Of a stretch of 29,420 bases of DNA, positions 4,001 through 26,929 are shown one piece after another. Under the pieces are notes generated by a model. That model ran no database searches. It saw only the letters and a program-made list of their open reading frames with translations, and was not told where the DNA came from. A program made the position numbers and the translations under genes. This DNA is from Fragilaria crotonensis (taxonomy: Eukaryota; Bacillariophyta; Fragilariophyceae; Fragilariales; Fragilariaceae), in assembly GCA_022925895.1 (NCBI GenBank), contig JAKSYS010000733.1, forward strand, positions 1-29,420, read 5' to 3'. Every line of letters begins with the position of its first letter. Position 1 is the stretch's first letter.

Positions 4001-4295
4001 CGACAACACAGAAACATCAAACGAGGAAATTGAGTATGAATGGTCCTCACAGGAGGAGGAAGAAGCATGTACGAATCTAAGTGATCGTTTCCAAGCTGCT
4101 ATAACCGATGACACAGTATCGGACAATGGCACTCCTATCTATGCGACATCCCAGACGTCAGTGACACCGCGGGCCACTAATGTCAACGTTCTTCAGTCAG
4201 TCCACAGCAGAAAATCTCCTCGTCCCACCACGCCAGCTCCCCTGGGCCCCCAATACACATCAGAAATGGGTCCAGCTGGAGCGGCAGATTCATGA
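1076..4295 (+). pseudogene. LINE ORF1 protein (gag-like, coiled coil), one frameshift
   Basis: ORF1 would be a protein of about 1,072 residues that presumably binds element RNA. It starts at ATG 1076. The first about 115 codons (acidic and aromatic; PPPAYPTFEEVEH, WYQFMYHLDRE) are in one frame that stops at 1424. The rest is in the next frame, entering at about 1418-1422 with YEIPEKLQEW; one extra G at 1420-1421 explains the switch. The middle (about nt 1960-2960) is a folded domain starting RLTVRWKPEGG and including VIPHLVVQCGERH and STREWAGTLRLPDG, which I recall as recurrent in diatom retroelement proteins. Nucleotides 3310-3680 encode a long heptad-like coiled coil. Acidic tails follow. 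No CCHC knuckle is seen. The stop overlaps the ORF2 start. It is listed as broken, but the break could be a sequence error. Confidence 0.75.
4292..4295 (+). promoter_or_regulatory. ATGA stop-start overlap joining ORF1 to ORF2
   Basis: The ORF1 stop TGA (4293-4295) overlaps the ORF2 start ATG (4292-4294). Such overlaps allow termination-reinitiation, shown experimentally for the bicistronic LINE SART1 (UAAUG). Use of this ATG is inferred from the overlap and from the lack of a better upstream ATG in the ORF2 frame. Confidence 0.65.
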
Positions 4296-7200
4296 ATTGG
4301 AGGCAAGGAGAAATCATAACGGATGGAGGGAATCTACGAGAGACTCCTCTGTCACCAAGTGTAGAAGGTCAAGGAGGAGTAGATTTGCGCCCGATCAATG
4401 CGTCGCCCCGAACTGCGTTACAGAGAGCCCAAGCTCAATGGAGACGTCTTTTGTCACTTCGTCCAGACCAGCAGAGAGTCGACAACACAAACCAGAGACG
4501 CGACACAGTTCTCAGTACAGCGAATTCTAGAGAAAATAACCCGTGGGGGGACGAACGGGGCGAAAAATTAGAGAACACAACTCGGGTGTATGCAATAAAT
4601 CTTAATGGGTTACAATTGGATGCAAAAGGAGGTAAGTTTGACTCAGTGTGCCGTTCCATCAAGGAGATTCAGGCGGATGTGTTCTGTGGCCAAGAGCATA
4701 ATGTGGATACCACGCAAGCGAACGTAAGGAATATCATGTTTGACACTGCAAAACAACATTGGGAACGCAATCGACTTGTACTCGGGACATCCCCCATTTC
4801 ATTTACAACCCAGTTTAAACCGGGAGGAACAATGGTTATGACAGTGGGATCACTTACTGGTCGATTATGTAAACAAGAACGCGATAAATGGGGTCGATGG
4901 TCGAGCCAAATATACCAGGGCCACGCAGGGAGAAAAATTGCTATTATCTCCGCATACCAACCGATAGTAAAAGGAGGCACGGCAGGAAAGATAACAGTTG
5001 CAGCACAACACCTAAGCTTGTTGATGCAATCGGAAGACAACACGACAAACCCAAGGGTTGCGTTCCGGCGAGACTTATCCAGGTGGTTGACTGACTATCA
5101 GCAACAAGGCTATGAAATTTTGTTGATTGGCGACTTCAATGAGCCCTTGGGTACAGACCCAGACGGTATGAGCAAGATTGCGGGAGATCACCGACTTATG
5201 GATATAATGGCACGTCGCCATTCGTCGGAACCACCAGCAACGTATGCACGCGGATCGCGCCGTTTGGATTACGCACTGGCAAGCGCACACATCTGCAATG
5301 CCTTAGTACGAGCAGGCTATGATGCGTTCAACAATGGTATTGCAACTGATCATAGGGGATATTTTATGGATTTCAGGACGGACATTTTATTCGGGTCGGA
5401 AACTCAGACGTTAGTAACTCGCACTCGGCGTGAACTGTCGTCAAGTAATCGGAAACAAGTGACAGCATATATTCGCCGAAAACACGACTTACTTACAAAA
5501 TGCAACGCGTTCGAAAGGTTGCTCCGCCTCCAGAACCCAGGCGACCGCCATATGTTTGCGGAGCGCTTGGATCAGGACCTTCTCGATGCTAGTTTAAATG
5601 CGGAAAAGGATCTTCCAAAATTTCTCGAACCAGCGTGGTCCGTCGAACTAGCGCAAGCACGCAAGAAAAAGCTCATACTGGCAAAGCAATTAACAGCTCT
5701 GAAGACAGGCTTGAACCATCTGGCAGTTCTACAACATGATATTGAAACGCTCGACATACCCTTTGAATTACCAGGCACAATACAAACCTGTTCTAATGCC
5801 ATGCGCCTCATTAATGTTGAAATCAAAGGACTGGTGGCGACAAGCACTGAAAGACGAGACCAAGAACTAAAGCGGAAGCTCCAAACTCTAGAGCAATCCG
5901 CGGATCCGGTAGATCAAAAGACGGCAATCAGGCTGCGACGACTCAAGAAAGCAGAGGATATTAACCAATTGTTTCAAAAACTAGCGCGGGTACGGAGAAC
6001 ACAGGAACGACAAGGTGTGACAAGAGTGGAAATTCCAAGGTTGGACAGCGATGACCCCAAAACATGCACGGATTGGGTACAAGTTGACGTTCCTACTGAA
6101 ATTTTGAGACTCTTGCAAGCACGAAATCGAAACCACTTTGGACAAGCGTTTGGCACGCCTTTTACAGTCCCACCACTATCAACTGAATTGGGCTTTGATG
6201 GGGCAACGGTGCACGGAGATCAGATTCTTGACGGAACGTATGATAGTACAACATTAGACGCCAACGTGCAACTCTTGTTACGTCATATGGAAAAAGTGCA
6301 CGAAATTCACCAACATCCATCCAAACCAACTATAACGGACGCGGAATTCGAAGACAAACTCAGGGTGTGGACCGAATCTACGACGACGTCCCCATCAGGG
6401 CTTCACCTAGGTCACTATAAGGCGCTCATTGCACGGCACAGCTTCCAGACAGACGCTTCGGACGAGGAATTAACCACAGAATTTAAGCAGCAACGAGATG
6501 AACTGGACCTCAAGCAAAAGGAGCTCCGAGACTTACATCTCGGCATGCTCAATTACGCACTGGCACGTGGTTACTCATACAATCGTTGGCACACCATTGC
6601 GAATACCATTCTTTTCAAAGATTCGGACAACGTTCGCCTCCATCGCACCAGAGTGATACATATATATGAAGCGGACTTCAATCTTGCTTTGGGAGTGAAA
6701 TGGCGCGAGGCCATGCATAAAGCTGAAGACAGTAACGCCTTTAATGACGGACAATATGGGTCTCGCTCTGCTCGATGTGCACCAGATCCAGTTTTTATTG
6801 AAGAACTGCAATGCGAAATCTCTCGGGCAACTAGGAAACCAGTCATTTTAACAAACTATGATGCTACAGCATGCTACGACCGAATTGTACCAAATTTGGG
6901 TATGCTTGCTAGTCGAAAGTATGGAGTCCCGTTGGAAGTGACGAAGTCGAATGCACGAACCTTGTCCACTGCAGAATATCGGATCCGCACAGAATTGGGG
7001 TTGGCTCCTACTGGATACCGGCATCATGATTCATTCCCAATCTACGGCACCGGGCAAGGGAGTGCAAACTCCCCGGGAATATGGTGCATGCTATCTAGCG
7101 CTCTCCTAGATGGATATGATCAAGTTGCAGCCCCGGCTCAGTATACAGACTCCGAGAATACGACAGAGGTTTCCTTGGGTATGATAAGTTTTGTTGACGA

Positions 7201-10200
7201 CTGCAATGGTCAAACCAATCAATTTGCGTCCGACGGGTCGACCGCAACAGTGGAGAAACTTTTCCAACAAACTCAGCAGAATGCACAACAGTGGAGCGAC
7301 TTACTCTATGCAAGTGGGGGAGCGCTAGAACTCTCCAAATGTTCAAGCCATGTTTTGCAATGGAAATTTTCCCTTCAAGGCGCTCCGGTGTTAGTCCCGT
7401 CTCACGAGGAGTTCCAAGATGTACTTCATGTTCGTGACCGGCAAACACGAGAAACTCATAAACTTCACCTACTGTCAGTCTATGACGCCCACAAAACCCT
7501 TGGACACTATAAGGCGCCGGTAGGGAACCAACTGGAACAGTTTCGTCAGCTAAAACGGAAGAGTGACGAAGCCGTAGCGTTCTTATGGACCTGTCCCTTG
7601 TCGAAGTTAGAAGCGTGGACGTACTATTACGCTTGTTACCTCCCGAGCGTAGGGTACCCGTTGGCGTGTTCGTCGCTGACAAAGAAACACCTCGATATCG
7701 TGCAACGGAAGGCTATGTCGATCATTGTGGCACGCTGTGGTTATAACAGAAACACAAAGAAGGAAATTCTCTACGGTCCCTTGGAATTGGGTGGTGCAAA
7801 CTTTCGACATTTATATGTGCAGCAAGGAGTAGGACAGATCACAATGTTTATCCGACACTGGAGATTGAAGTCGACCGCTGGTAAACTTCTTCGAGTTGCT
7901 CTGTCGTGGTTTCAACAACAGACAGGGGTTTCGTATGCAATATTGGAGCACGTCAAACCGCCGCTTCCCCATTTGGAGTCTAAATGGATCGGTTCACTGA
8001 GACAATTCTTGGCGGAAACGGATATGTATTTACAGGTAGATGCCCCGTCAATTCCTAAGCTCCAGCGGCGGTATGATTACCACCTGATGGATGCGATTTT
8101 GGATTCAAAGAAATTTACAGATGCGGAGATAAGAAGACTCAATTACTGTCGATTATATCTAAACGCGGTCACATTGGCAGATATTACAGTCGTAAAAGGC
8201 GATTATCTGGATAAAACGAAGACGACAGGACATCCCTCATTGGTTAGCAGCAGTACACATGGCAATGTAATATATCAGGAACGACCATCCGACCGCGAAT
8301 GGGCGTTATGGAGAAAAATGTGTCAGATTCTGTGGAGCGACGCCGACGGGAAGTTGCGCGAACCACTCGGCCATTGGATATTGCCGACCCACCAACAACG
8401 ACAGCACCACCAGGCATACCTCGAACATTTAGAGCTTTGTGGCTCGGACACTATCCTGTGGGTTCGTTGCTGTCCTGGAGAGGTGTACACGAAGTGTACT
8501 CAGACGGCGAGCCCGTGGGTGTATCGCGAGACCAAGAAGACAACTCGATTATGGAAAGAACTACCGTCTCATGCCGCTCCTTGCGACGTCGAACTCATTG
8601 GACTTGACCTCTGGAATGTACGTCATCAGGCTACCACGGATTTCCCAAGGACACGTGTACAACCCGCGGCAACGTTTTCACAATTTGTGAGCGGCCTCCC
8701 TATCTGGGAAGCTGAATTACTGCAAGAAGTGGAATTGTCAGAAGACCCGTTTACGGTGAGTGAGGTCCTATCACACGGTATAAGAGCAGTAAGTGATGGT
8801 TCCGTGTGGACAGATAATCAAGGCGCCTTCGGATGGATGCTCAGTTCGGACCTAGGTGACAGAGTGGCGCGAGGAATGGGACCAGCAAGGGGCGCCAAAG
8901 TCGACTCGTATCGCGCTGAAGCATATGGAATGTTGGCCATCTTGTGCTTCCTCCGCCGATTGGCAGAATTCACCACCCAAATGGAGCCGTGGACGGGGAT
9001 TCTGGCTACGGATAGCGAAAGCCTTTTTAGAGACTCTCACAGTCAAACCACAGAAAGAGGAAAACGCGCGGCCGCTGTACGACAAACAGAAACAAGTCGC
9101 ACAACTCGACGTGAAGTGCCCGGAGTGGGATTTACTGAGTAGTATCCTCACCGAGCTTCAAAGATGGCCAGGATTGACGCTACAGCACGTGAGAGGTCAC
9201 CAAGATCGGAAAACAGGTTACAACCGCCTACCGCTATTGGCCCAACTCAATGTGGATGCCGATCTCATGGCAACGACTTATCAATGCGAACAAGGCATGT
9301 CCCGACCAGTTGTTCTCCTCACGGATACGGCAGGGGTGCATCTAGTGACCCACAATGGTAGCATGACCAAAAACTATGACGCGGTCATCCGATATCAAGC
9401 TACGCAGCCTGGCCTAGCTCAATACATCCAAAAAAAGGTATGGGTGGTCGGACAAAGTGATGGGTAACGTCAATTGGAAAGCCCATGGATCAAGTCTGCG
9501 CAGGAAGATCCAGCGGAAGACACACTATACCAAATTAGTTCACGGGATCCTTCCGACAGGGAAACAGGTACACCGGAGAGACCCAACCCGAAACAAGTGC
9601 CCTCTTTGTCACACTACCGAGGAAGACTGGAGTCACATTATCAAATGCCCGCACGAAAGTCGACGAGCATGGAGGGTCCAAGTCATTCCAACGGTGGAGG
9701 CGAAATGTAAGTCCTTGCAAACGCGTCCATTGCTGACGCGAGTGTTAAGCGACGCATTGACCGGTTGGTTCAACCACGTTAACGACGACTACACCCTCAA
9801 TTCCCAGCAATACCCAACAGAGGTCCATCAACTCATTCGGCAACAAAATGAAATCGGTTGGCACCAACTGTTTTTAGGACGGTTCAGCAATGAGTGGAGT
9901 GATGTCCAAGATATTTATTATGCACAAAAGGATGCGGAAGCAGTACACAACAAGAAAAAGAAGAAGAAAAACACGGGTCAAAGGTGGCAAGTCCACATTA
10001 TCGGGCTGTTATGGGACCAATGGTGGGCACTGTGGGAAAGTCGGAACCGAGATCTACATGGGGAGGATGCACGCTCTCGAGCACAAGCCGAGACGAGAGA
10101 GGTGCATAGGACCTTACGCGAACTATACGATTATCGAGCGAGGCTGAGTACGGAGGTACAAAACCTAATGTACGCCGATGTTACAGAGCATTTCGGTCGA

Positions 10201-10332
10201 CCCCTGTGGGTCAACAAAAATTGGATTGCAGTTCACGAGCCACTCATCAGGGCGGATTTGAAGCGAGTGGCGACGCGGATAAGAGCAGGAACAAGATCTA
10301 TCCGCCAATACTTGATTTCGCGGATGTCGTAA
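4292..10332 (+). pseudogene. LINE ORF2 polyprotein: endonuclease, reverse transcriptase, RNase H, zinc knuckle; two frameshifts
   Basis: Read through its breaks, ORF2 is about 2,010 residues. The endonuclease (nt about 4580-5375) shows INLNGL, GQEHN, GDFNE and TDHRG, the metal and catalytic motifs of the APE family. The reverse transcriptase (about 6350-7400) shows SGLHLGHYKA, motif A YDATACYDRI (6858-6887), motif B GTGQGSANSPG (about 7046-7078) and motif C FVDD (about 7190-7201). RNase H (about 8790-9290) shows SDGS, YRAEAYG, TDSES and then HVRGHQD and LNVDADLM. The knuckle is CPLC-HTTEEDWS-H-IIKC-PH (about 9600-9651). Frame breaks: one extra T in the T5 run 9024-9028 splits RNase H, and one extra A in the A7 run 9430-9436 precedes GWSDKVMGNVNWKAHG. 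A lysine run encoded by AAG/AAA lies near 9952-9972. Every catalytic motif is present, so the element may have been active until recently. Confidence 0.88.
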
Positions 10333-12836: not shown

Positions 12837-15284
12837 CGATCACATTTTCAATTCTATCTTCATCAAAAAACATCGTTGCACGAATCGGAAAGAGCTGTAA
12901 ATCAATCATGCAATCCTCTACAATAATGCAACTGGAAGCAGTTTAGAGGCTCTGATAGATAGAAAGTTATTAAATGTAGAACTGTCGCAAAAAAATTCAA
13001 TTTTTTGATTTCCTTAATTACGTCGGTCGCTCACGAGGCTTCAGCTATTTGTGCAATGTGCATACCAATACAAGCAGGACACATCCAGAAACCTATCATG
13101 CACTTGCAATAGGTTCTTATGCGTTTTTTGCAGCCGACTGTCTTGCAAATGTGCTGCGGGTATTTGGTTGAGAGGAACTGCCATTGCGTTCCAGTCCAAT
13201 TTCCAGCGTAGACAGGAGCCGTTTCCACGCCGCAAACAGATGCCACGGGCTCCATACTCCGCCTCGTCCTCTTTCTTGTGCCTGTATTAACAACAAACGA
13301 GAATTCCATCAACTCCTTAGCAAGTAATCGCCTGAACTCCAGTTGGCTAAGCGTATCAGATTGAGAAAAGTATGAGTGTGCGAGTCGTGCATTCACCTCG
13401 ACCACAGCAAGGATAAAGGTGAATACTCGTATCTTCCAATCCTTGGTGTTGATACTCTCCTCCAATGATATTGAGAGTGTCTGGCATTGTTATGGTCATC
13501 AACTTGGTGCCTGAACTTGAAATGGTTAAAAAGGGCTCGGTGTAAACAAAACTCACATTTTCCCGAATGCCGCTTCGACGAGTCACGCTTCGTTGCGTCA
13601 ATCCTCCATCCATCGGTCGCAGCGCTCCATACGTTGCCATCAATTTCATGACGTAGTCTTCCTCCTTCATACAGAAGACTTTAAAGTTGATGCCGTCCAA
13701 AGTGCCTGGGAGGCTGTCGGTGGTGCCGATCTCCTTCAAATCAAAATGTGAGTCGATCGCCGCGCCGTCAATATACTTCGGCCAGTAACGACGCTTTTAA
13801 TTACTGCCGATGCGTAGACACCGACAGAAGCCAACTGCACCAGTCCTTTCAGCACACAGAAACCGCTGTCCATGATCACCACTCTTCCTGAGTGGTGAAT
13901 GGACTCGGTCAATCTCATAAGCAGACCAGTCGTCTTACCGTGTTCCGAATATTTTTCGTTCGGAATTTGCGACGGTCGGTCCTTACCTTGCACGAGCTCA
14001 ATTGCAAACATTATTCCACTCAAGCCACAACAAATTGAATGATATTCATTCCCCTTTGGATGGGGTTTTCTTGGAACAAAGACCCAGCCAGGGCACGTCC
14101 ACATGTTCGTCCAGACCGACATGGACTCATCCAAACAAGAGACCCAGCTCGGACTGAAGCAAGCCTGCGTGTGTTTGTTGAAAGCATCAATAATATCATT
14201 GACAGGATGGAATGGATGTTTGAATGCAGGTGGAGGCGTTGTTGTGAGCTTTAGATGCTTCAGGATCGCCTCAAAACGTCTCCTGGACATGTAAGCATGC
14301 AGACGAAACGGGGCACCACAAAATATGTCTGGCATGTCGTTTGCCCAAAACATACGTCTTTGTACTCCCTGAGTCGTTCCCAAGAGAAACAGAATCGCCA
14401 TGAACCGCAGAAACTCATCCCATGTAAGAGGGTCAAAAGTGTTTCGTTTGTGGCTTGGAGAATGGTTGTTTTGAAGAACTCCTGCGGCAAAAAGTGAAGG
14501 AAGAAACCCAACGCGGTGTGCATTGATGGATCAGCACTTACCAAGGAAGGCTGGACATCCCTGACGCCAGCCACCCTTCTAGCATCTAAGGGTTCACTTC
14601 CCCAGGGTCGGTATATATCACCAGTGTCAGTGTCGTTTGAAGTTGGAACGTTTTGGGAGCAGGCTCATTATCGTCGTCAACTGCAAATCCCTGTGCGAAA
14701 ACTCGAGACGTCTTCATTCAAGACTGACGGGATTTCACGCTCGTCGTTCTCGTTGCCCCCAACAGCCACACTCCTGTCGTTTTCCACATCGTTCGTTGGT
14801 ATAACATCGAATAAGGATTCAATGGGTCCTTCTTGAGTGACCTTGCAAAATCGAGCGACCGCATGCAGGATTTGACCATCGTCAAAATCGTCGTGTCGCA
14901 TCGTCAAACAGACCTGCAAACGCCTGGAAACCATTCTCTCCTCCTGTCCAATGACAAGGAGGTTGTCCAGCACATCATTCTTTGATGCATTTGGATACCT
15001 TTTTGAAATGACAGCCCTTGGGTGAAGGAACTTCTTGTAGACGGTGATCTTGGCTCCGACGCCATGGCGTAACCGTTTAGTTTTCGGCATGATTTTTTTT
15101 TAACGATAAAAAAATTCGGTACAGAGACCAACTTCTATTAATCATATCTCGACTTCTACCGCTTCAAACAAGTGCATCTTGATAACCTGTATTGCACACA
15201 ACTAGTACTTTCATATCGTACTGAGCCATAGAACTCGAGAACATGAAGCCCAAATGATCACTTATTTTAAAAAATGACACTGAA
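12831..15284 (-). mobile_element. piggyBac-type DNA transposon, 2.45 kb
   Basis: The element contains one transposase gene on the minus strand (13031-15090). It lies between TTAA sites at 12827-12830 and 15285-15288 with matching inverted tips TTCAGT/ACTGAA. The non-coding ends are 200 and 194 bp. The size and the TTAA duplication fit the piggyBac superfamily. A perfect palindrome ACTGAATTCAGT lies just outside the right end (15299-15310). Confidence 0.6.
13031..15090 (-). pseudogene. piggyBac transposase (DDE, PGBD-like), multiply frameshifted
   Basis: The start is ATG at 15090 (MPKTKRLRHG); the stop is at 13031-13033. Conserved blocks appear in order but in changing frames: VDDDNEPAP (about 14650-14690), RVAGVRDVQPSLV with FFLHFLPQEFFKTTILQATNET (about 14445-14590), LTWDEFLRFMAILFLLG (about 14360-14430), SWVSCLDESMSVWTNMWTCPG with the first catalytic Asp (about 14090-14150), VVIMDSGFCVLKGLV with the second (about 13835-13880), KRRYWPKYIDG, GTLDGINFKVFCMKEEDYVM, then HQVDDHNNARH (the family DNHN block) and RVFTFILAVVEVNARLA. 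The C-terminal Cys-rich finger has CKK, TYCKC and WMCPACIGMH. About six one-base deletions are needed; five fall in 4-5-base homopolymers (14699-14702, 14650-14653, 14435-14438, 13794-13797, 13528-13532). As written it cannot make a whole transposase. Confidence 0.85.
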
Positions 15285-15577: not shown

Positions 15578-17947
15578 TCATGACGATGGGTTTAGGATGA
15601 CAAGATTCACGTCAGCTGGCCCTTGATGGTTCGAGTCTCGATTGCGAACACGTCGCAGCATATGAACTTCATCAGTTACACTGCGGATGAATGACGGCGA
15701 ACCACACACTACAACTGCAGCCTGTTTGTTTGATTCTCGTTGTGGAGAGTATTCTTGGCAGTTGTGGACATAACCCTTCAAGACATCTGCAAGTTCTGGC
15801 CTCCTGTATTCCACCTTGATGTGATTTTGAATCACATCGTCGCCAATGGGTCCATCACTCCTCCTTGTTGATTGCTCACTCTCAGCCACAGATTCATATT
15901 GTTCGCTGCTGTGAGCACCGTTCCAGGCAGTACCAGTGATAGGTAATGCTGATCTTCTGCAGCAACAGCCATTGCCTTTATTGACCAGCCGTTTGATTCG
16001 ATGAAAGACATATAGCAGGGCTAGGGCAAATAATGGAGCAAAGAACAAGGACAAGATTGCTGGGAGCCCTCGAAAGCAGTACAGGCATATAAGAGGTTTG
16101 CAACAAGGAAGCATAAGAATGTCGCCTCTCTTGATGGTCTCCGCGTCACACGAGACACATGTGGTGGAATCACCAAAAAAGGAACATTTGCTGAAGGTTG
16201 TGCCATCCTTCTCTACCACAAGGGAGTTGCAGCAGATGGCCCGGCTTACTGCAAAGCTTAATGCGACGCTCACTATAGAGGCAACTGTTGTGGAGATGGG
16301 ATCGTAAAACGACTTTAAGTGCCCGGAAAACTTGACTTGGTAACTTCTCACAAGTTTCGTCGGTTGAAACGGTTGGCTTCCCTCAGTTGATCCTGTAACA
16401 AACACATGGCACTGTGTTGCTCCATCCCGACTACAAGGCAACAAATCTTGAGACAAAAATTCCATTTCATCCGCAGCGCGAACTAGCCAAACCAACCATG
16501 TTCGTCTGCCTGTGTCAACGCTGCGGTTGCGTATAGTCTCCGATACGCCAGTCAACCCAACACCGCCGACTAGAAAGAGGCAATTTTCGTAGCAATCCAA
16601 TGATGCGTGCAGATCAACCCCGTACGGGCCTTCGATTTCAAAGTCGAAGGTTAACGCTTGGAAATTGCTTTCAGCGCTTCTGAAGGTATTTCCATGTAGC
16701 GATTGTTGCTGGTTGGGTAGATCAGCCAGCGATGCAGGACTCGAAAAGAGAGACGCTTCGTGGACTTTGGATGCGAATGCGGAAGTCCAATCACCCAATG
16801 CTTTGATGTGCAAGCTTATTGTCTGATTTGTTGGATCAATTTTGCTTATTGATATCGGGTGAGACTGCCAAATCGAAATTGAAGGGACTTTAAGGTACAC
16901 AAACATTCCTGGCCTTGGCACTGAAGTCCATGACTTGGGGATGCTGAAAGTCAATGCGATAATCTTGGCGTCTGCTGCTGGCTGTTCCGAGGATTTATGA
17001 TTAATGCAGATTTTCAGGTCACCGTCATCAAATGTATTCGAGTTGCCGGCCGCGTGTGTTGCAGTTACTCGAGTTTGCAGTCTGGAATACTTTCGTAACA
17101 ACCGTTCGGTAATCCATGCCACTAAGGCCGGCTGGACGAAGTGAAGGGTATTGTAATCATGGAGATTGGAAAAGAAGATCAATAATGCGGTAGAGGAAAG
17201 ATGGAATCCATTGAATCCTTCATACCAGTGCCTACGAAACCACGGTTGTGACGTGGCAACCAACGCAAGCAGCATGAGAAGACCTGCCCAACCCATCGCA
17301 TTCACCACACCTTCGGTGTAGTAGCCCCGAAAAGGAAGCATCGACTCCCACCATTCTTCCCAAGATAGTCGCATTGCATATGCAGAGGAGATGAATGCGA
17401 CGTGGACTAGAAGCCAGAAAAGTATAGCGTTCCCCATCCAAATGTGCATAATAGCGGTTTCCTTGTGGGACAAAGAGCTCTGAACCTCAAGGCGTTGCAG
17501 TGGTGAAATCCTTTGCACTGGAAAGATTACAGCTGCTAAATTCCAAAGAGCAGGCCAAGCGGCTTTCGCTCCTAATATTTCAAGGACACCTACGACTGAA
17601 GGAGTTCGATGCCGATTTCGAAGGGATGGTTGTATGAGTGATGCTACGAACCATAGCAAGTTTATTACGAGGAACGTGCGCAATTTCAGTGGGCAAGAAC
17701 CCAACAACGCCTGCTGTCGCTTGAGAGTGTCAACATTAATTCTTTTGCAGCACCACGGTAGAGCGGTTGGAAGAAGAACTAGACTGCTTGTTGCGAAAAT
17801 CCAAATCCATTCTGCTGAGGTGGTGCAGGTGTTTCCGACTTCGCCAGAATGGTTTAGATACAGAATCGAACTTGAGTCGGGCCACAGTTGAAAAGCAACG
17901 GTGCCCAGAATCAAGCCAGCCCCGAAAGTAAGGCAAAGTCTAGCCAT
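15578..17947 (-). CDS. Ferric reductase / NADPH-oxidase-family flavocytochrome
   Basis: This 789-residue, intronless protein should pass electrons from NADPH through FAD and two b-type hemes across the membrane, probably to reduce extracellular ferric iron. The N-terminus (1-25) is hydrophobic. Several membrane spans follow at about 45-65, 90-108, 165-190, 212-232 and 245-262. Heme-ligand pairs keep the family spacing: H168/H182 and H249/H263, each 14 apart. The FAD-binding motif is SHPISIS (362-368). The NADPH side has GGVGLTG (461-467), WLVWLVR (484-490) and CGSP (748-751). Unusually, residues about 549-650 place two more hydrophobic spans and a cysteine-rich loop inside the NADPH-binding half. 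No EF-hands are seen, arguing for a FRE rather than a calcium-regulated oxidase. It is divergent from the NikA-like gene, which supports a metal-uptake role; substrate is inferred. Confidence 0.88.
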   Translation of the reverse strand: MARLCLTFGAGLILGTVAFQLWPDSSSILYLNHSGEVGNTCTTSAEWIWIFATSSLVLLPTALPWCCKRINVDTLKRQQALLGSCPLKLRTFLVINLLWFVASLIQPSLRNRHRTPSVVGVLEILGAKAAWPALWNLAAVIFPVQRISPLQRLEVQSSLSHKETAIMHIWMGNAILFWLLVHVAFISSAYAMRLSWEEWWESMLPFRGYYTEGVVNAMGWAGLLMLLALVATSQPWFRRHWYEGFNGFHLSSTALLIFFSNLHDYNTLHFVQPALVAWITERLLRKYSRLQTRVTATHAAGNSNTFDDGDLKICINHKSSEQPAADAKIIALTFSIPKSWTSVPRPGMFVYLKVPSISIWQSHPISISKIDPTNQTISLHIKALGDWTSAFASKVHEASLFSSPASLADLPNQQQSLHGNTFRSAESNFQALTFDFEIEGPYGVDLHASLDCYENCLFLVGGVGLTGVSETIRNRSVDTGRRTWLVWLVRAADEMEFLSQDLLPCSRDGATQCHVFVTGSTEGSQPFQPTKLVRSYQVKFSGHLKSFYDPISTTVASIVSVALSFAVSRAICCNSLVVEKDGTTFSKCSFFGDSTTCVSCDAETIKRGDILMLPCCKPLICLYCFRGLPAILSLFFAPLFALALLYVFHRIKRLVNKGNGCCCRRSALPITGTAWNGAHSSEQYESVAESEQSTRRSDGPIGDDVIQNHIKVEYRRPELADVLKGYVHNCQEYSPQRESNKQAAVVVCGSPSFIRSVTDEVHMLRRVRNRDSNHQGPADVNLVILNPSS

Positions 17948-18872
17948 CGTGTGTGGGCATTCTATCGTGAGCCGAGAAAGTTATGATACCCCCATAATTC
18001 AAGCACTCTACTAGGAAATGATACCATCAGGCCATTTTAAAACCATGTTTATATGAACATGGTAACATGGACTACCTTTTTCTTTTATGTTTGTCGCGGT
18101 ACCAGTATGCTCCTGCAGAGTCCAGAGGGTGAGGCCATATGCGTGCTATCACCTGGCTATCACCACGAATCGTGCGATGTGGGGTTATGGCCTTGGAACA
18201 AGCCCAGCGTGCTGCGTGTATGCATATGCATATTCCGAGTACTCGAGTAGTAGACTACTGGTAGTACAATACGGCTAGTACAGAATACAAGAAAGACATT
18301 TGTACACAAGTGCTACTAGTAGTACTATACTACAAGTATGTACTGCCACACTTTTGCTAGTAATCGGAATACGTAGAACGGGTTGGTCCTCCGGAGCTCC
18401 GAGCTGTATGCATATGTACTCGAGTACCAGGGACGTTTGTACTTGGAGTAACCCTGCTGATAAATCGTCGGGAAGAAAGAAGAAAGGCCATAGGGTTTGG
18501 AGTTTTTTCTAGATCTTGCTGCATGAGAGGGGGAAAGGGCCTGGACTGTGGATCCCTCACCACCGAAACATCAAAAATGTATCGATACACTCCTTTTTTC
18601 TGTACTTCCTGAGTTATTGAGTACTACTACTATGCATGTAGTACATGGGGAGGACCGGAGACGGGGGGCCACGAGGACATGTGTAGTATTCGTATGCATA
18701 AGCCTGTGTCAACTGTAAACAGAGTCAACAAAGGCCTTGGCTAAGCGTATGTTCGTTTGGCCTTCGACAAGAAAAAGATTATGCAAGATCCTGGGTTTAT
18801 ACTCTCACATTTTATCGGATTACCACCCAGTAGTGCTCACAAATTATCCTCAACCGCCCTCTATCCACCGTG
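17948..18872. promoter_or_regulatory. Shared divergent intergenic region between ferric reductase and NikA-like gene
   Basis: This 925-bp region must hold the promoters of both divergent genes. No gene is supported inside it. It contains many GTAC/TAGTA palindromes, such as CGAGTACTCG (18236-18245) and GTACTCGAGTAC (18416-18427), and CTACTAGTAGTACTATACT (about 18313-18331). I looked for CACGTG-type sites, which I recall from diatom iron-responsive promoters, and saw none. Whether the two genes share regulation is inferred from arrangement only. Confidence 0.4.
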
Positions 18873-20723
18873 ATGATTATGGATACTCACCTTCGCATGG
18901 TCGGAGTGCTATTGTGCTCGATGGCATTCCTCGTCGCCCAGGTATGGGGTGCGGACGCAAACTGTGCTCATCACAATATTGACTTCATCATGATAGATGG
19001 CGATGCCAACCTGCAGGCAGTAGAGGACGATATTCGTTCTCAGCTCGCGCGAGCAGGGTTCAACGTATCTTCACGAATGCTCTCGAAAGAAGCATTCAAT
19101 GCGGCTCATCAGAATGGAGACTTTCACATGTCTTTCACGGAAACTTGGGGCGCACCCTACGACCCTCATAGCTACGCCAGTGGGTGGATTGCCGGTGATG
19201 AGGGGCATAAGCAAGCAATGGCAAATTTTGAACCGCCTGATTCTCGAGACGTGCTGTTTCAAGATATTGAGAATGTCTTGCTTGAGTCCTCACACAAAGG
19301 ACGTGAAACGCAGTGGAAGTCAATTCTCACAACACTCCACCAGCAAGCTATCATGTTACCATTGTGGGGAAAACGAATCCCCACAGTTCTCAGCAATCGC
19401 TTGACAGGATATGAAGCCGGCATGCAGCAGTTTGACTATCCTGTTCACAGACTTATTGTTCAGTCAGGTCCGACCACCGTAAGGTGTGCTCCAGGAGCCC
19501 AAACTGGCATGTTTCAGACAGTCGGTCGTCTCGACCCTCACACATACAGACCCAACGAATTCTTCGCCAACAACTGGGTTTACGAAGGCCTGGTCAAATA
19601 CGGCCCACAAGGGCAAGTTCTACCAGCGCTGGCCACGTCTTGGACAACAGAAGACAGTGCCAACGGTGGTCAGCAATACATTTTCTCTCTTCGTCCTAAT
19701 GTAACCTTTCACGACGGCACGCAATGGAATTGTCAGGCCGCGAAGCTTAACTTTGATCATGTGCTTGCGGAGCCACTCAAGTCAGTTGACTATCATGGTT
19801 GGTACGGTGTTCCCAACATGATTTCGTCTTGGACCTGTGCCAGTGATTTCGAATTTGTCGTAACTTTGAAGGAGAAGTACTATACTTTCCTGCAAGAGCT
19901 GACTTACATTCGACCACTCCGCATGCTCTCGCCTGCCTCATTTGTGGGAAGTGGCGACCCAGTGAAGGAGAACTCATGCCATGCGGGGTGGGGTGAGCTA
20001 TCCACCGAAGGTGTTTCTGTCACATGTGTTGGAATCACCAATGTTTCCGGAACTGGCCCGTTCGTATTTGCTTCGCGAACTCCTAGCTCATCGGAAGATG
20101 GCGTCGACGATGAGGTTGTATTTGTGCGCAACGAGAAATATTGGGAAGGAGTGAGTGTTATTGAGCGTCTGGTGATTGTTCGTTATGAAACGCCTGCGGA
20201 CGTCAAGGCAGCACTCCTTAATGGGTCATTAGACATGGTTTGGGGAGCAGGAGTTTTGACTGCGCAGGATCTTGTGGATCTTGAAGATGAACCAAACCTG
20301 TCAGTCTTTCACTCGGGAGATATCCAGAATACCATCCTTCTGTTGAACTCCGGAAAGCCGCCGCTTGATGACATCACGATCCGCAAAGCAATCATTCATT
20401 CCGTGAACAAGATCGACATCATTGACAACGAATTGGGAGGTTTTGAGCGTCCCGTCGATAACATTTTTCCATTGGATGCTCCTTATTGCGATCTTGATCT
20501 GACGCCGCGCTGGGACTATGATTTCGAGAAAGCCATCTTCTTGAACTGTAAGACGTCTTCGGAAGGTAGCGGCAACGGGGATCTGGCCTTGATCCTGGGC
20601 TGTGTGTTGGGAGCTATCTGCTCCGTTCTCTTGGTGGGGAGTGTGCTATGCTATATGCGATACCGATATGCTGAGCATGCACTTGAGGAACTGCGTCGAG
20701 AAGAGAAGGCTGTCTCTGCATAA
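18873..20723 (+). CDS. NikA-like family 5 solute-binding protein, circularly permuted, membrane-anchored
   Basis: This intronless 616-residue protein starts at ATG 18873 (18879 and 18897 are later in-frame ATGs). Residues 1-26 are a signal peptide (GVLLCSMAFLVAQVWG). Residues 35-195 match the C-terminal part of bacterial NikA (QLARAGFNVSS, then TWGAPYDPHSY, LHQQAIMLPL). Residues 205-556 match the NikA N-terminal part in order (LDPHTYRPNEFFANNWVYEGLVKY, shortened here to its core VYEGLVKY; SLRPNVTFHDG; FLQELTYIRPLR; GTGPF; FVRNEKYW; NILLLNS-like ILLLNSGKPP; YDFEKA). So the lobes are in swapped order. Residues 571-595 form a transmembrane helix and 596-616 a charged cytosolic tail. Pocket residues of NikA are mostly kept (W92, W310, R347). 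The lobe should sit outside the cell and bind a metal chelate or peptide. Bacterial origin is likely. It is divergent from the ferric reductase. Confidence 0.85.
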   Translation: MIMDTHLRMVGVLLCSMAFLVAQVWGADANCAHHNIDFIMIDGDANLQAVEDDIRSQLARAGFNVSSRMLSKEAFNAAHQNGDFHMSFTETWGAPYDPHSYASGWIAGDEGHKQAMANFEPPDSRDVLFQDIENVLLESSHKGRETQWKSILTTLHQQAIMLPLWGKRIPTVLSNRLTGYEAGMQQFDYPVHRLIVQSGPTTVRCAPGAQTGMFQTVGRLDPHTYRPNEFFANNWVYEGLVKYGPQGQVLPALATSWTTEDSANGGQQYIFSLRPNVTFHDGTQWNCQAAKLNFDHVLAEPLKSVDYHGWYGVPNMISSWTCASDFEFVVTLKEKYYTFLQELTYIRPLRMLSPASFVGSGDPVKENSCHAGWGELSTEGVSVTCVGITNVSGTGPFVFASRTPSSSEDGVDDEVVFVRNEKYWEGVSVIERLVIVRYETPADVKAALLNGSLDMVWGAGVLTAQDLVDLEDEPNLSVFHSGDIQNTILLLNSGKPPLDDITIRKAIIHSVNKIDIIDNELGGFERPVDNIFPLDAPYCDLDLTPRWDYDFEKAIFLNCKTSSEGSGNGDLALILGCVLGAICSVLLVGSVLCYMRYRYAEHALEELRREEKAVSA

Positions 20724-21303: not shown

Positions 21304-24300
21304 TCACTCATCGATCACAATCGCTCCATCGTTCATTGCAGGCACAAAGCCATAAACAAAGCCTGCATCAAAGTCTATCGCCGCTCGATGTGATTTAAAT
21401 GCCTTAACAATCCGTTCGATTAGGGGAAGTGAGACTTTCGTAGTGTCATCTCCCCTGTTTGCGCTCTCGTAAAGTGAGTAATAAGCGCAGATGTAAGATC
21501 TTGCTCGCCTTGAAAGTTTGCGGATCGTCTCGGTTGTGAGAACTTCCCTGTTTGTTACATCGTTGACTAACTTCTTGAATGTTTCTTTGCTTTTTTTAGA
21601 GATCAATGGCTTTCGTCTGTACATTCCCTTCGCAATACCCCAACTGTATTCAACTCCCTCGCCAGCCAATTCAGCATGAAATTTCGGCGTGATGATGACT
21701 GAGACACCCAATTGTTGGCCAACGTGCTGCAACGCAGTCAGTTCTTCCGCAAAGTCGAGGCAACTGGCCATGAGACACTTTAAGCTCCAATCCTCGGCAC
21801 CCTCTAATACTTCGCCATCGCCATCGGTGGCAACATCTATTGTATACTTGTCAAGCTGTGCCTCATCTATCCATCCCCTTTCCCAAAGAACTTGTAAGAG
21901 ACCTTTTGGTCGACCCTCCCAACCTTTCTTTTCTCTTGATCTCACCTTTTTTGTTTCAATGTTGTTGTTTTTTGCAAGCTCTTGCAATTCAGTCAGACGA
22001 TAGTTGCGGCGATCACTCAGGATACCAATTGGACCAAGCTCTGCTTTTAGTTCACTTATTGTTTTGTTTTGCATCCGAGAAGCACCAGGAGGAGAAGGAA
22101 GGATTCGGTCGTGGCGATTAACCTCTCGCTCTGCTTCGCTCATCCAAAAAGGCCCGTCGTCGGTCGGTAGAAAGATAAAACTCTGGATGTCGCCAACATT
22201 TAAGGTACGTCGATGCATCCCGAGATAGCCATCATGATCCTTTATAATTGACTCACGCATCTGAGGTTGCACTCCACCATAGCCCTTGTTCATGCTATAG
22301 GCGTCTAATCCATTCGAGAGCTTTTTGGCATGCCCTTGTGAATGGTCAAAAGGAAGGAGAAATCGAAATGAGGATAGACAACTTTGAGACTATCGACACA
22401 ATCTTCAAATTGGATGGACATGTGATTATATGTCCAATAGCCTTCGTTGTTTGCTCGAGCTCAAAATTGATAACAAAGGTGAGTCTTTGAGGTCTTTCTT
22501 TGTTGCTTGTCCGTGGATTGCCATCGCGGCATCCACATCAACGTACGTCTTGCCACGTCGCGATTCATTGATCTCATCAAGTTGCATCCTACTCAGGTTT
22601 AGCCCAAACCCGGTTTCTCGCGATTGAAACGCTGATAACATCAAACTCAAACCGTCCGTCTTTGGAAGAAGCGCACGCTGTCCTTCAGGTCCAACCCATT
22701 GTCGATTGCCGAGTAGAAACTGATTGAAAACACTCTCGTCTTGCCCAAATATCATGAGCGGTTTCGATGGCGATTCTGGCTTTCTGACACTCAAGTTTCC
22801 TCCCATCAAACCGTACCCCATTTCGTTTGCAACATTGTGAAGAAAGCTGTGATCGTCGACATGAAATTCTACCATTTGAATGTTGTCGTCGGAAAGGTAC
22901 GAGTATCCCTTTGCATTGTGGTTAAATTCTGAAGGCTTTTTCTCACGTTTCCAGTTCTCTGCAGTTTCTCTTGTCACCTGGATCCACCGATGGCATCGCG
23001 GCTCCAATTTAGAAAGATAATCCTTGCAAAACTGATTCCTGTGGAACACAACATTTGGGCGTTCGTGCCCGTCAACGAAGAACGTTTTCTTTCGTGCGTC
23101 GTATGAGAATCCGAGGCGACGTAGCCAGCGCCAGGTCGTAGATAACGAGATCGGTGACTCTAAATAAACACTCAGTAGACAGTCTGCTTTAGTTCTTTGT
23201 AATCTGTTGTTCTTGTCGTTGTCTGTCTCGTCGTCTTCATTGTCTTCCACGTTCTGCTTATATTCTTCGTTGGTGCCTCCTCGCTCCTCGTCGTTAGTCA
23301 CGACGATGCCATTGTTCGCCTCCGTTGCGCGTGGAAGAATTTTCGATATCAACTCGTTTCGTGCCAACTCAATTGTGAGATCGGCAAGGTTCTCAATGCA
23401 GTACTGATGCCATGGAACTGTAACCTCCTCCTGGAAGTAAGCAAGTAGATCTGGAAGCGGTTTCTTCTGCTTGTGAATCTTCGGGTTTGGATGTGGAAAG
23501 CGCTCGCGATTGGCTCTCAAGAGAATGTTCCATCCTGCGACTGTCCTTTCGTTTGTACCCGCAGCTTCAATTCCCATCTTGCTGCTTTCAAAGATGGCTT
23601 TTGCACAACAATCTTCAACCCATCGTGCGGAATTCATCTCCTCGAGTGCGAAAGTGTAGGCTAAGCAAATAATAGAACATCTCTGTCTACAGATGAAAAT
23701 ATCATACGGAGAACAGAGATTGTCCTTATCATGCTTATCTACAAGATCTCTCCATCCGTCCATAGTTCGGTTGACTTGCTGTAGCCGCTCAATCCGTTCC
23801 TCCAGGACTTCAACAACATCGCGGGCATCACTTGAATTACCAAGGAACAGTTTCTTTGCTTCCGGACTGTCCCAATACGTCTCGACTACAATCTTTGCTG
23901 ATGCAGGGCCATGTCTAGGTTTCTTTGCTTTGTCCTCTGCTTCAACTCGCGCTCGAGCTTTCCGTTTTGCAGTTGATTGCTCCGCAATTTCGTTCGTCAA
24001 ATCGACGACTTCTGGAACACCGCGAGCAACACTGTAATGGTCATTAATTGTTGAATCTTTCAACAACGATATGAAACTCTTCTTTCCACCATCTGGCGGG
24101 CGTTGCACCAACCCTCCTGGGGTTGTTATGTAGTATCCCCAAATATTCCGTTTTGGATTGCCGAAGGATCCTGACCGAAACTACAACGTCGGAATCGACC
24201 AGTTTGGTTAGAATCCGTGAAATCATCAAGTACCACGCCACCACACGATGAAATTGCTTTGTTCAGCATACCCCTATTGAAACCAAGGGTCTCAAGAGTT

Positions 24301-24689: not shown

Positions 24690-25271
24690 GGATTGAGTTT
24701 CGCTGTGTGGAATTTGGATCAACCGTGTGCACTCGAACCGCCGCATTGGAGCTACTACCTGGTAGTATGTATGTAGTTCTGTAGTAAAGCGGCGGCCTCG
24801 CGAACTCTCTCAGTCATGCATGGCAAGCCCCAGAACTGAATCGACTTTCTTAGCTCGTACAGGTGCAGTACAATGTAGTAGTACAAACTTGTTCGATACC
24901 CCAACGAATGCAGGACTGAGAATTCCTGCCAGTACCAGGTACTTGTACATTGTACATGTACTTGTAGCCTACTTGTAGCACTGAATTCTGATTGGTAAGC
25001 ATACATGCATACTCGTACACAATATATTGCATATCATTGCAGCTGCTCAGTACGTTAGAGCTGGTACTGGTATCTTCCTTCCAGAACTCAAAACATCAAG
25101 AAACTTGGTAACCTGATTTCCTGCTGTCGTGTAACCTTTTTCCAAACTTATGGTCGACTGTGAATCCACAAGCAGCGACAATAATCACTGACATTTCTTT
25201 GCAGTTTCATCGTTCTCTCTTCTTCACTTCGTCCTCTGCATCCTCTGCACATCAACCATCAACAATTGATC
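24690..25271. promoter_or_regulatory. Intergenic upstream region of the nicotinate phosphoribosyltransferase gene
   Basis: No gene is supported. About 24750-25030 is dense in GTAC/TGTAC words (for example TGTACATTGTACATGTAC near 24946). The last about 70 bases before the ATG are pyrimidine-rich (TCGTTCTCTCTTCTTCACTT), as often seen around eukaryotic transcription starts; promoter function is inferred. Confidence 0.4.
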
Positions 25272-26929
25272 ATGCCCACTCTTGAAAAACCGTTGAATAC
25301 GTTGGTAACCCCGTTGTTGACTGATTTGTATCAATTAACCATGACGTACGCTCACTGGAAGAATGGTCGAGTGGACGACCCGGCGACCTTTGAGCTTTTC
25401 TTTCGCAAGAATCCTTTTGGAGGAGAATTCACCATCTTCTGTGGACTCGACGAAGTGCTCAAATTCATCGACAATTACAAATTCTCTGAAGAGGATATTG
25501 ATTACTTGAAGAAAACGCCTTCGCTCAATCACTGCGATCCTGGCTTCTGGGACTTTCTTCGCAACATTGATTGTTCGGGCATCACAATCCATGCCATGAA
25601 GGAGGGGACTCTGGCCTTTCCACGCATTCCTCTCATTGTCGTGGAGGGACCCCTGGGCATCACACAGCTGCTAGAAACTACCTTGCTCACACTGGTCAAC
25701 TATCCCTCCCTCCTTGCAACGAACGCCGCACGCATGGTGGTGGCATCGAAAGAAGAGAATGCGTACTATACCAAAAGGAACATCAAGGGAGAAGGAGAAT
25801 CCAGGAAACCAAGGTGCGTCGAATTTGGGCTCCGACGCGCACAGGGACCCGATGGAGGGTTCAGTGCATCCAAGTATTCGGCGATTGGTGGTTTCGTTGG
25901 AACTTCCAACGTGCAGGCAGGCAAATTGGTCGGTCTCAGCATTGTGGGGACGCACGCCCATTCCTTTGTACAAGCATATGGGACTCTAGAGGAAGTCAGC
26001 AATTTGACGTTGATGGATAAGAATGAGGGGGATGAGAAACTTCTTTTGCCATTGGTACTAAAGTATCGTGAAGAGTACGGTGATCGGTACTTGACGACGA
26101 ATGATGGTGAATTGGCCGCTTTCATCGCATACGCCAGCGCCTTTCCCGATACCTTCCTTTGTCTTATCGATACGTATGACACGCTGGCGTCGGGTCTGCT
26201 CAACTTTTGCCTCGTGTCGCTCGTTCTAGATGATTTGGGATACACGCCCGTGGCATTCGCCTTGACTCGGGAGATTTGGCATACCTCAGTCTCACGTGCG
26301 CCGACAAGTTTAATGAATTCGACCGCACTTTCTTTGCCACGCTCGACATTGTTGCTTCCAACGACATTAATGAAGAAGTCTTGCATGCCCTCAACAAACA
26401 AGGACATGCAATTACCGTCTTTGGAATTGGCACAAACCTTGTCACCTGCCAAGCTCAACCGGCGCTTGGCTGTGTCTTCAAGTTGGTTGAGATTGATGGA
26501 AGGCCTCGCATGAAGTTGTCACAGGATATTGAAAAGGTTTTAATTCCGGGAAAGAAGAAACCCTACCGCTTGTATGGTGTTGACGGCTGGCCGTTGTTGG
26601 ACCTGTTGGTGCGCTCCGAAGAGGAGATCCCACAGGTCGGCCAGCGTCTAATGTGTCGCCATCCCTTTGTCGAACGAAAGCGCGCCGTCGTCACTCCGAA
26701 AAAGGTGGAAGCGCTTCACCATGTATTCTATCAAAATGGTAGGCCAACCATGGATTTTCCGACTCTGGAGGAAACAACAGCCTACGTACAAGAGCAGTTA
26801 TCCCACCTCCGATCCGATATCCTGCGTCCCATCAATCCTACACCCTACAAGGTATCTGTGTCGCAAGACTTATTCACCTTTTTGCATGATTTGTGGCAAG
26901 CAGAATCGCCAGTGGCGGAAATCTATTGA
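25272..26929 (+). CDS. NAPRT: Nicotinate phosphoribosyltransferase, one frameshift in the sequence as given
   Basis: The enzyme joins nicotinate to PRPP, giving nicotinate mononucleotide, the first step of the Preiss-Handler route to NAD; it is cytosolic in most eukaryotes. The start is ATG 25272 (MPTLEKPLNT). Family signatures: TDLYQLTMTYAHWK (17-30), FELFFRKNPFGG (40-51), EFGLRRAQGPDGG (184-196), VGTHAHSFV (225-233, with the conserved catalytic-region His) and DTYDT (300-304). At about codon 327 the frame breaks: GTGGC at 26250-26254 lacks one G, after which GIRLDSGDLAYLS, VASNDINEE and FGIGTNLVTCQAQPALGCV continue in another frame to the stop at 26927-26929. Allowing for that base the protein is 552 residues, normal for the family. 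Because it is otherwise perfectly conserved, a sequence error or very recent mutation is likelier than an old pseudogene. Confidence 0.93.

Follow-up and report, generated by a model that had tools for sequence, protein, structure and literature searches.

A circularly permuted NikA-type protein, probably a membrane-anchored metal-chelate receptor, in the diatom Fragilaria crotonensis

Introduction

Solute-binding proteins that are circularly permuted in nature are, to our knowledge, rare, and a gene in the diatom Fragilaria crotonensis raises the question of whether a NikA-type protein can be encoded by a eukaryote with its two parts in swapped order and, if so, what such a protein might do there. 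The gene lies at 18873..20723 of the window, by which we mean the whole stretch of DNA analysed, the 29,420 nucleotides of contig JAKSYS010000733.1. The initial annotation of this stretch, made from the letters alone, read the product as a permuted NikA with a signal peptide and a C-terminal membrane helix, and held that a permuted family 5 binding protein would be unusual in a eukaryote. The permutation is supported by the analyses presented here, but a NikA-type protein of diatoms had already been described, namely ZCRP-B (PMC9010474). It appears that the protein family is known and that the rearrangement is new: we found no report in the open-access literature of permutation in a diatom NikA-type protein, the string 'permut' has no occurrence in the main text of PMC9010474, and the only published precedent that we found for a permuted solute-binding protein is bacterial (PMC4990184). 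We infer with good confidence that the window gene encodes a membrane-anchored, permuted NikA-type receptor at the cell surface that would bind a small metal-chelate complex.

Layout of the gene and its product

The frame is continuous, as had been annotated, running from an ATG at 18873 to a stop codon ending at 20723 with no interruption. Its parts are as follows.

18873..20723, + strand: gene of the proposed permuted NikA-type receptor, a single open frame of 616 codons plus stop
18873..18959, + strand: putative signal peptide, residues 1-29, from hydropathy only (hydrophobic at about residues 6-28)
18963..18965, + strand: Cys31, beside the new N-terminus, kept in the paralogue
18975..19448, + strand: first segment, residues 35-192, matching TIGR02294 positions 344-498 (last third of NikA; profile match)
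19449..19514, + strand: junction of the natural NikA C-terminus to the natural N-terminus, residues 193-214 (alignments)
19515..20534, + strand: second segment, residues 215-554, matching TIGR02294 positions 14-318 (first two thirds of NikA; profile match)
20547..20549, + strand: Cys559, beside the new C-terminus, kept in the paralogue
20580..20663, + strand: predicted C-terminal transmembrane helix, about residues 570-597 (hydropathy)

The paralogue is a second permuted copy, located on contig C276 of the same assembly (62 Mb in 881 contigs). It is 44% identical to the window copy over residues 29-591, right through the junction and with the same order of segments, and it provides the same-order homologue to which the initial annotation had looked for corroboration. 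When the assembly was searched with the TIGR02294 and PF00496 models (E 0.01), no genes other than these two were reported. Both proteins belong to the Pfam family SBP_bac_5 (PF00496), the window protein with 157.7 bits and the paralogue with 173.5 bits, each above the gathering score (32.4 bits).

Hydropathy alone bears out both the hydrophobic N-terminal stretch and the hydrophobic C-terminal segment that had been annotated. The latter is strong, with a 19-residue mean hydropathy of 2.68 from residue 571; a strong helix of this kind is found in both diatom copies, and the tail past it ends in AVSA in both when they are aligned. Seven cysteines of the ectodomain are common to the two copies (31, 287, 322, 369, 385, 539 and 559 in the numbering of the window copy), and among 84 bacterial homologues cysteines past about mature residue 5 are seen in 14, with a maximum of four. 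Ahead of the hydrophobic leader of the paralogue (region 1380-1500 of locus L002) the sequence examined contains no in-frame ATG, and the gene may have a 5' exon before a candidate splice acceptor near position 1438 of that locus.

Segment order and rotation

Among NCBIfam models, the whole window protein in its native order is matched best by nickel_nikA (TIGR02294), with 294.6 bits against an equivalog cut-off of 393 bits that it does not reach. The initial annotation had assigned residues 35-195 to the last third of NikA and residues 205-556 to its first two thirds, and had proposed that the protein be split and each half compared separately. Scanned apart, each half does match the NikA profile, residues 35-192 to positions 344-498 (E 4.9e-22) and residues 215-554 to positions 14-318 (E 2.2e-65); the first assignment stands, and for the second the swapped order stands but the profile match begins at 215 and not at 205. 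The natural termini, thought to be fused at about 195-205, are joined in the alignments within residues 193-214, and the junction of the paralogue is of approximately the same length. Positions 344-498 of the model (343-500 in the paralogue) lie ahead of positions 14-318 in both copies. A phmmer search of PDB chains returned the same arrangement against E. coli NikA, with residues 215-358 matching 12-148, residues 387-557 matching 155-318, and residues 36-164 matching 342-467. The N-terminal segment scores 63.9 bits against E. coli NikA, and the best of 200 shuffled sequences scores 26.9. Residues of approximately 319-341 in NikA have no counterpart in the permuted protein, and it is there that the alignments locate the new ends.

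The ectodomains were also rotated in 5-residue steps and scored with a model of 84 bacterial NikA-type proteins. In native order the best domain of the window copy scores 252 bits, and when the protein is cut before residue 203 a single domain spans positions 12-498 of 501 with 340 bits, a figure on the scale of the 84-sequence model that is not comparable with the 393-bit cut-off of TIGR02294. With the same model the paralogue rises from 251 bits to 340 when cut at 174-183, and E. coli NikA, a control that is itself included in the model, scores highest unrotated. In finer steps, 13 of the 14 cuts made in the window copy yield one domain, the exception being a split at cut 183, and the paralogue forms one long domain at four of 24 cuts (174, 177, 183 and 225) and is divided in two at the remaining 20; those of the divided pieces that were checked lie in canonical order. 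In pairwise BLAST against E. coli NikA, the native window copy is likewise aligned in two pieces, the better with E 4e-54, and the rotated one in a single piece (495 columns, E 7e-72); for the paralogue the native match has 30.3% identity and E 1.2e-48, and the rotated match E 1.9e-71. After rotation both copies thereby show one match of nearly full length. As a control of order, the halves of E. coli NikA were used as queries: loci L001 and L002, the latter being the paralogue, are swapped, and six bacterial loci are canonical, with the first half found in two overlapping pieces in one of these (L020).

At the level of sequence, the permuted order of this NikA-type protein is near certain, and its circular permutation in a eukaryote is supported by the alignments, the rotation test and the paralogue of the same order. 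It is very likely that the permuted chain would form one closed, two-lobed fold.

The binding pocket

We number pocket columns according to published E. coli NikA (PMC11091072). Y22, W100 and R137 are invariant in all 84 bacterial homologues and are kept in both diatom copies, as are W398 and Y402. The first segment of the window protein contains the motif TWGAPYDPH and the columns W398, Y402 and H416, and the second contains W310 and R347. The alignments agree with the earlier residue equivalences, W100 with W310, R137 with R347, W398 with W92, and R97 replaced by Y307; for H416, tentatively equated with H112, the column itself holds E110, and a histidine does occur at H112, two residues on. 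The paralogue keeps R97, S415 and H416, columns that hold Y, D and E in the window copy. At Y382 and R386 both diatom copies differ from E. coli, and these columns are variable among bacteria too.

The H416 column deserves a closer description, as it is a metal ligand that the paralogue retains and that the window copy replaces with Glu, with a His two residues on. Among the 84 bacterial sequences the column holds His in 52, F in 25, N in five, W in two, and never E; since it is other than His in 32 of the 84, loss of the histidine by itself is no proof of a new ligand. Fe-EDTA leaves His416 without a coordination site in NikA (PMC11091072), and the Glu of the window copy would be compatible with a saturated chelate as ligand, a reading that it fits but does not prove.

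The adjacent ferric reductase

The neighbouring gene, transcribed divergently, encodes a ferric reductase.

15578..17947, - strand: ferric reductase of 789 aa with Ferric_reduct, FAD_binding_8 and NAD_binding_6 (domain matches)
17948..18872, no strand assigned: intergenic region of 925 bp between the divergent start codons, a possible shared promoter (coordinates)

This set of domains is typical of eukaryotes, and the protein has two pairs of histidines spaced by 14 residues (168/182 and 249/263). Nine Ferric_reduct matches were reported in the 62 Mb assembly, a count that is possibly too low, and the window neighbour is one of these. None of the nine is on the contig of the paralogue, so the link to a reductase rests on one locus. 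The chance of finding a reductase within 5 kb of either NikA-like gene is approximately 0.3%, a post hoc estimate that depends on a match count that may be too low. The diatom literature describes an iron-response motif, ACACGTGC. It has no exact match in the window, and its 19 matches with one mismatch, compared with a shuffle mean of 23, represent no enrichment; one of them is at 18306, between the receptor and reductase genes. Specialisation of the window copy for an iron chelate, acting together with the ferric reductase, is plausible, although our confidence in it falls well short of even.

Comparison with known systems

The diatom proteins resemble E. coli NikA in family, as judged by both halves, and in pocket residues Y22, W100, R137, W398 and Y402, with R97 and H416 retained in addition by the paralogue only; they differ from it in their permuted order, C-terminal membrane helix, shared cysteines, and native-order score below the family cut-off. 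NikA has also been reported in proteomics of T. pseudonana (PMC3797725).

ZCRP-B, a NikA homologue of marine diatoms, is located at the plasma membrane and becomes more abundant when Zn and Co are low (Kellogg et al. 2022, PMC9010474), and its overexpression left Co uptake unchanged (PMC9010474). We give roughly even chances to the explanation, overlapping with the one we prefer, that the window gene encodes a plain protein of the ZCRP-B type, that ZCRP-B is itself permuted but has not been remarked upon as such, and that the reductase is a neighbour by coincidence. Like ZCRP-B as described in that report, the proteins found here are diatom NikA homologues about 30% identical to E. coli NikA, predicted to be mostly extracellular and to have a single membrane segment; moreover, the published match of ZCRP-B to E. 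coli NikA (30.5% identity, E 7e-49; PMC9010474) is close to that of the paralogue in native order (30.3%, 1.2e-48) and unlike that of the rotated paralogue (1.9e-71), although E-values vary with the database and this likeness is only a hint that ZCRP-B is permuted. Against a common layout, the one transmembrane segment predicted for ZCRP-B of P. tricornutum is near the N-terminus (PMC9010474), whereas hydropathy places that of the proteins described here at the C-terminus, the two being compared by description only; and the window copy lacks equivalents of R97 and H416, which argues against a plain ZCRP-B type. As domain order affects both models and alignments, ZCRP-B, which has been proposed as a marker of marine Zn stress, is worth checking for rearrangement.

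A second comparison is with FBP1 of P. tricornutum, to which the initial annotation had suggested a link. That link fails, in that FBP1 is described as similar to FhuD/DesE, a different class of binding protein (Coale et al. 2019, PMC6876252), and Peripla_BP_2 is absent from the Pfam matches of the window protein; we therefore rejected an FBP1 identity. No match to Peripla_BP_2 (PF01497, the FBP1 type) was found in the genome at E 1e-3, in a search that had no diatom positive control. FBP1 homologues are reported in both centric and pennate diatoms (PMC6876252). The arrangement of genes is nonetheless shared, as in FBP1/FRE2, a pair for siderophore uptake, the receptor gene is likewise divergent from a ferric reductase gene (PMC6876252), with a spacing of about 1.5 kb there and 925 bp here, and with an FhuD/DesE-like receptor there and a NikA-like one here.

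TpMglB-2 of Treponema pallidum is a natural circularly permuted solute-binding protein and, like the diatom protein as we propose it, is tethered to the membrane (PMC4990184); it differs in being a bacterial glucose binder of Type I (cluster B), a separate family, in which the N lobe is rearranged.

Bacterial relatives and the host genome

Relatives found outside this genome are all bacterial, the collections searched being ones that hold no eukaryotic genomes. In GTDB genomes 404 stretches encode relatives, and among the best 80 of these 404 examined for order, 79 could be ordered, all of them canonical and none permuted; the remaining stretch (L098) contains only one half. Matches occur in 679 plasmid records, of which the six examined are canonical, and among the 40 listed there is no single-piece match covering more than 69% of the query. 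No relatives were found in viral contigs. Identity to bacterial sequences reaches at most 34.6% in the window copy and 35.8% in the paralogue. In a tree of the 84 bacterial sequences with four family 5 outgroups the diatom pair forms a clade (support 1.0) that is joined to all 84 bacterial sequences as a whole (support 0.953), and the donor is thus not identified. Trees of the separate halves identify no donor either: for the N-half the pair is again joined to all 84 (support 0.96), and for the C-half its position is weak (support 0.64).

An origin of the permuted order in a bacterium, from which the diatom lineage would have taken it over already rearranged, is unlikely in our view. Permuted binding proteins do occur naturally in bacteria, as TpMglB-2 illustrates (PMC4990184), and the branching of the diatom pair outside the 84 sampled NikA-type proteins makes an unsampled donor possible, but the uniformly canonical order of the 79 GTDB relatives and of the plasmid records, within the limits given above, speaks against it.

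Artefacts of assembly can be set aside as vanishingly improbable: the window is the whole of a small contig from a single assembly, but a misassembly at the junction, which the initial annotation had named as a possible flaw, or a chimeric frame made of two pieces of a normal gene is excluded by the paralogue, which has the same order on a different contig and keeps 44% identity across the junction, by the uninterrupted frame, and by the single match that the segments of both copies give after rotation. Bacterial contamination is dismissed with the same firmness, for although the relatives found elsewhere, in collections without eukaryotic genomes, are bacterial, the contig bears a ferric reductase, genes of transposons and a repeat for which the assembly has 123 matches, the C-terminal helix is missing from five bacterial NikAs aligned, the diatom copies share seven cysteines where the bacterial homologues have four at most, and the codon usage of the NikA-like gene fits its window neighbours. 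In codon usage both copies resemble two of those neighbours (a DEAD-box helicase and the ferric reductase) more than three bacterial nikA genes do, and matches to silicon transporters of up to 646 bits indicate a diatom genome.

A proposed receptor and its origin

We return to our preferred reading, that of a permuted, membrane-anchored receptor. The sequence itself shows that a short linker joins the natural C- and N-termini, that the new termini fall at the place of some 23 NikA residues between positions 318 and 342, that a hydrophobic leader lies ahead of the new N-terminus and a hydrophobic helix behind the new C-terminus, and that a second copy shares this order. The two-lobed clam would close, within the NikA pocket, around a metal complex, with W310, W92 and Y96 providing stacking and R347 binding a carboxylate. 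The loop that carries both new ends presumably lies in lobe II, the lobe with H416, as in family 5 structures; with both ends leaving this one loop, the molecule would hang from the membrane by lobe II. A disulphide between Cys31 and Cys559 may hold the new ends to each other and would close the opened loop, although with an odd number of shared cysteines, seven, this pairing is uncertain. A role as a surface receptor for metal chelates is likely from homology and published relatives, and the gene product probably helps the alga to capture scarce metals. No ABC-transporter domain was found in the eight window proteins or the three neighbours of the paralogue that were scanned.

The two copies may have diverged in ligand. 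More tentatively, the paralogue, with R97 and H416 kept, may bind a NikA-like complex of Ni, Co or Zn and would be the likelier counterpart of ZCRP-B, and the window copy, with Y and E in these columns and a reductase as neighbour, might supply reductive uptake with a chelate that is coordinatively saturated and perhaps ferric. As to origin, a bacterial nikA could have been transferred and duplicated in tandem, the two copies fused in frame and both outer parts lost; the permutation would have taken place before the split of the two paralogues.

A broader hypothesis, which we consider doubtful but worth stating, is that a permuted NikA made within eukaryotes founded an algal receptor family, a disulphide-closed clam on a C-terminal anchor that operates without an ABC transporter, and that one of its branches, with its metal ligand swapped, joined a ferric reductase as a second pair for chelated iron, distinct from that of FBP1. 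Under this hypothesis the permutation would have placed the two ends together on a single loop in one lobe and so permitted C-terminal anchoring. A permuted NikA in a diatom would illustrate how a bacterial protein bound to a transporter can become a stand-alone surface receptor of a eukaryote. The pair of paralogues, one with its pocket mostly intact and one altered beside a reductase, offers a test of the assignment of metals to algal receptors.

Other features of the window and the genome

A search for Ni-superoxide dismutase gave no match, and its controls gave none either. Silicon transporter domains occur in tandem within one open frame in two places, three domains on C97 (29749-33762) and two on C771 (21664-24330).

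Several parts of the window appear to contain mobile elements. Two ORFs at 21304-24111 (- strand) have no Pfam match and form an apparent mobile element, with 123 matches to its 329-aa ORF across the assembly, the ORF itself being counted; one of these lies about 8 kb upstream of the paralogue on C276, and with copies so very numerous the presence of this element near both NikA-like genes is probably due to chance. The region 1152-10332 (+ strand) has the look of a LINE-type retrotransposon, with two long ORFs and further ORFs up to 10332; the second long ORF has an endonuclease match, together with a reverse-transcriptase match below cut-off. A transposase (DDE_Tnp_1_7) is present in the ORF at 13736-14401, within 13031-15090 (- strand), and ORFs in other frames alongside may be further pieces. 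Finally, an ORF at 25266-26929 (+ strand) has a nicotinate phosphoribosyltransferase N-terminal domain, and an ORF in another frame that overlaps it near 26276 may continue this gene by way of an intron or a change of frame.
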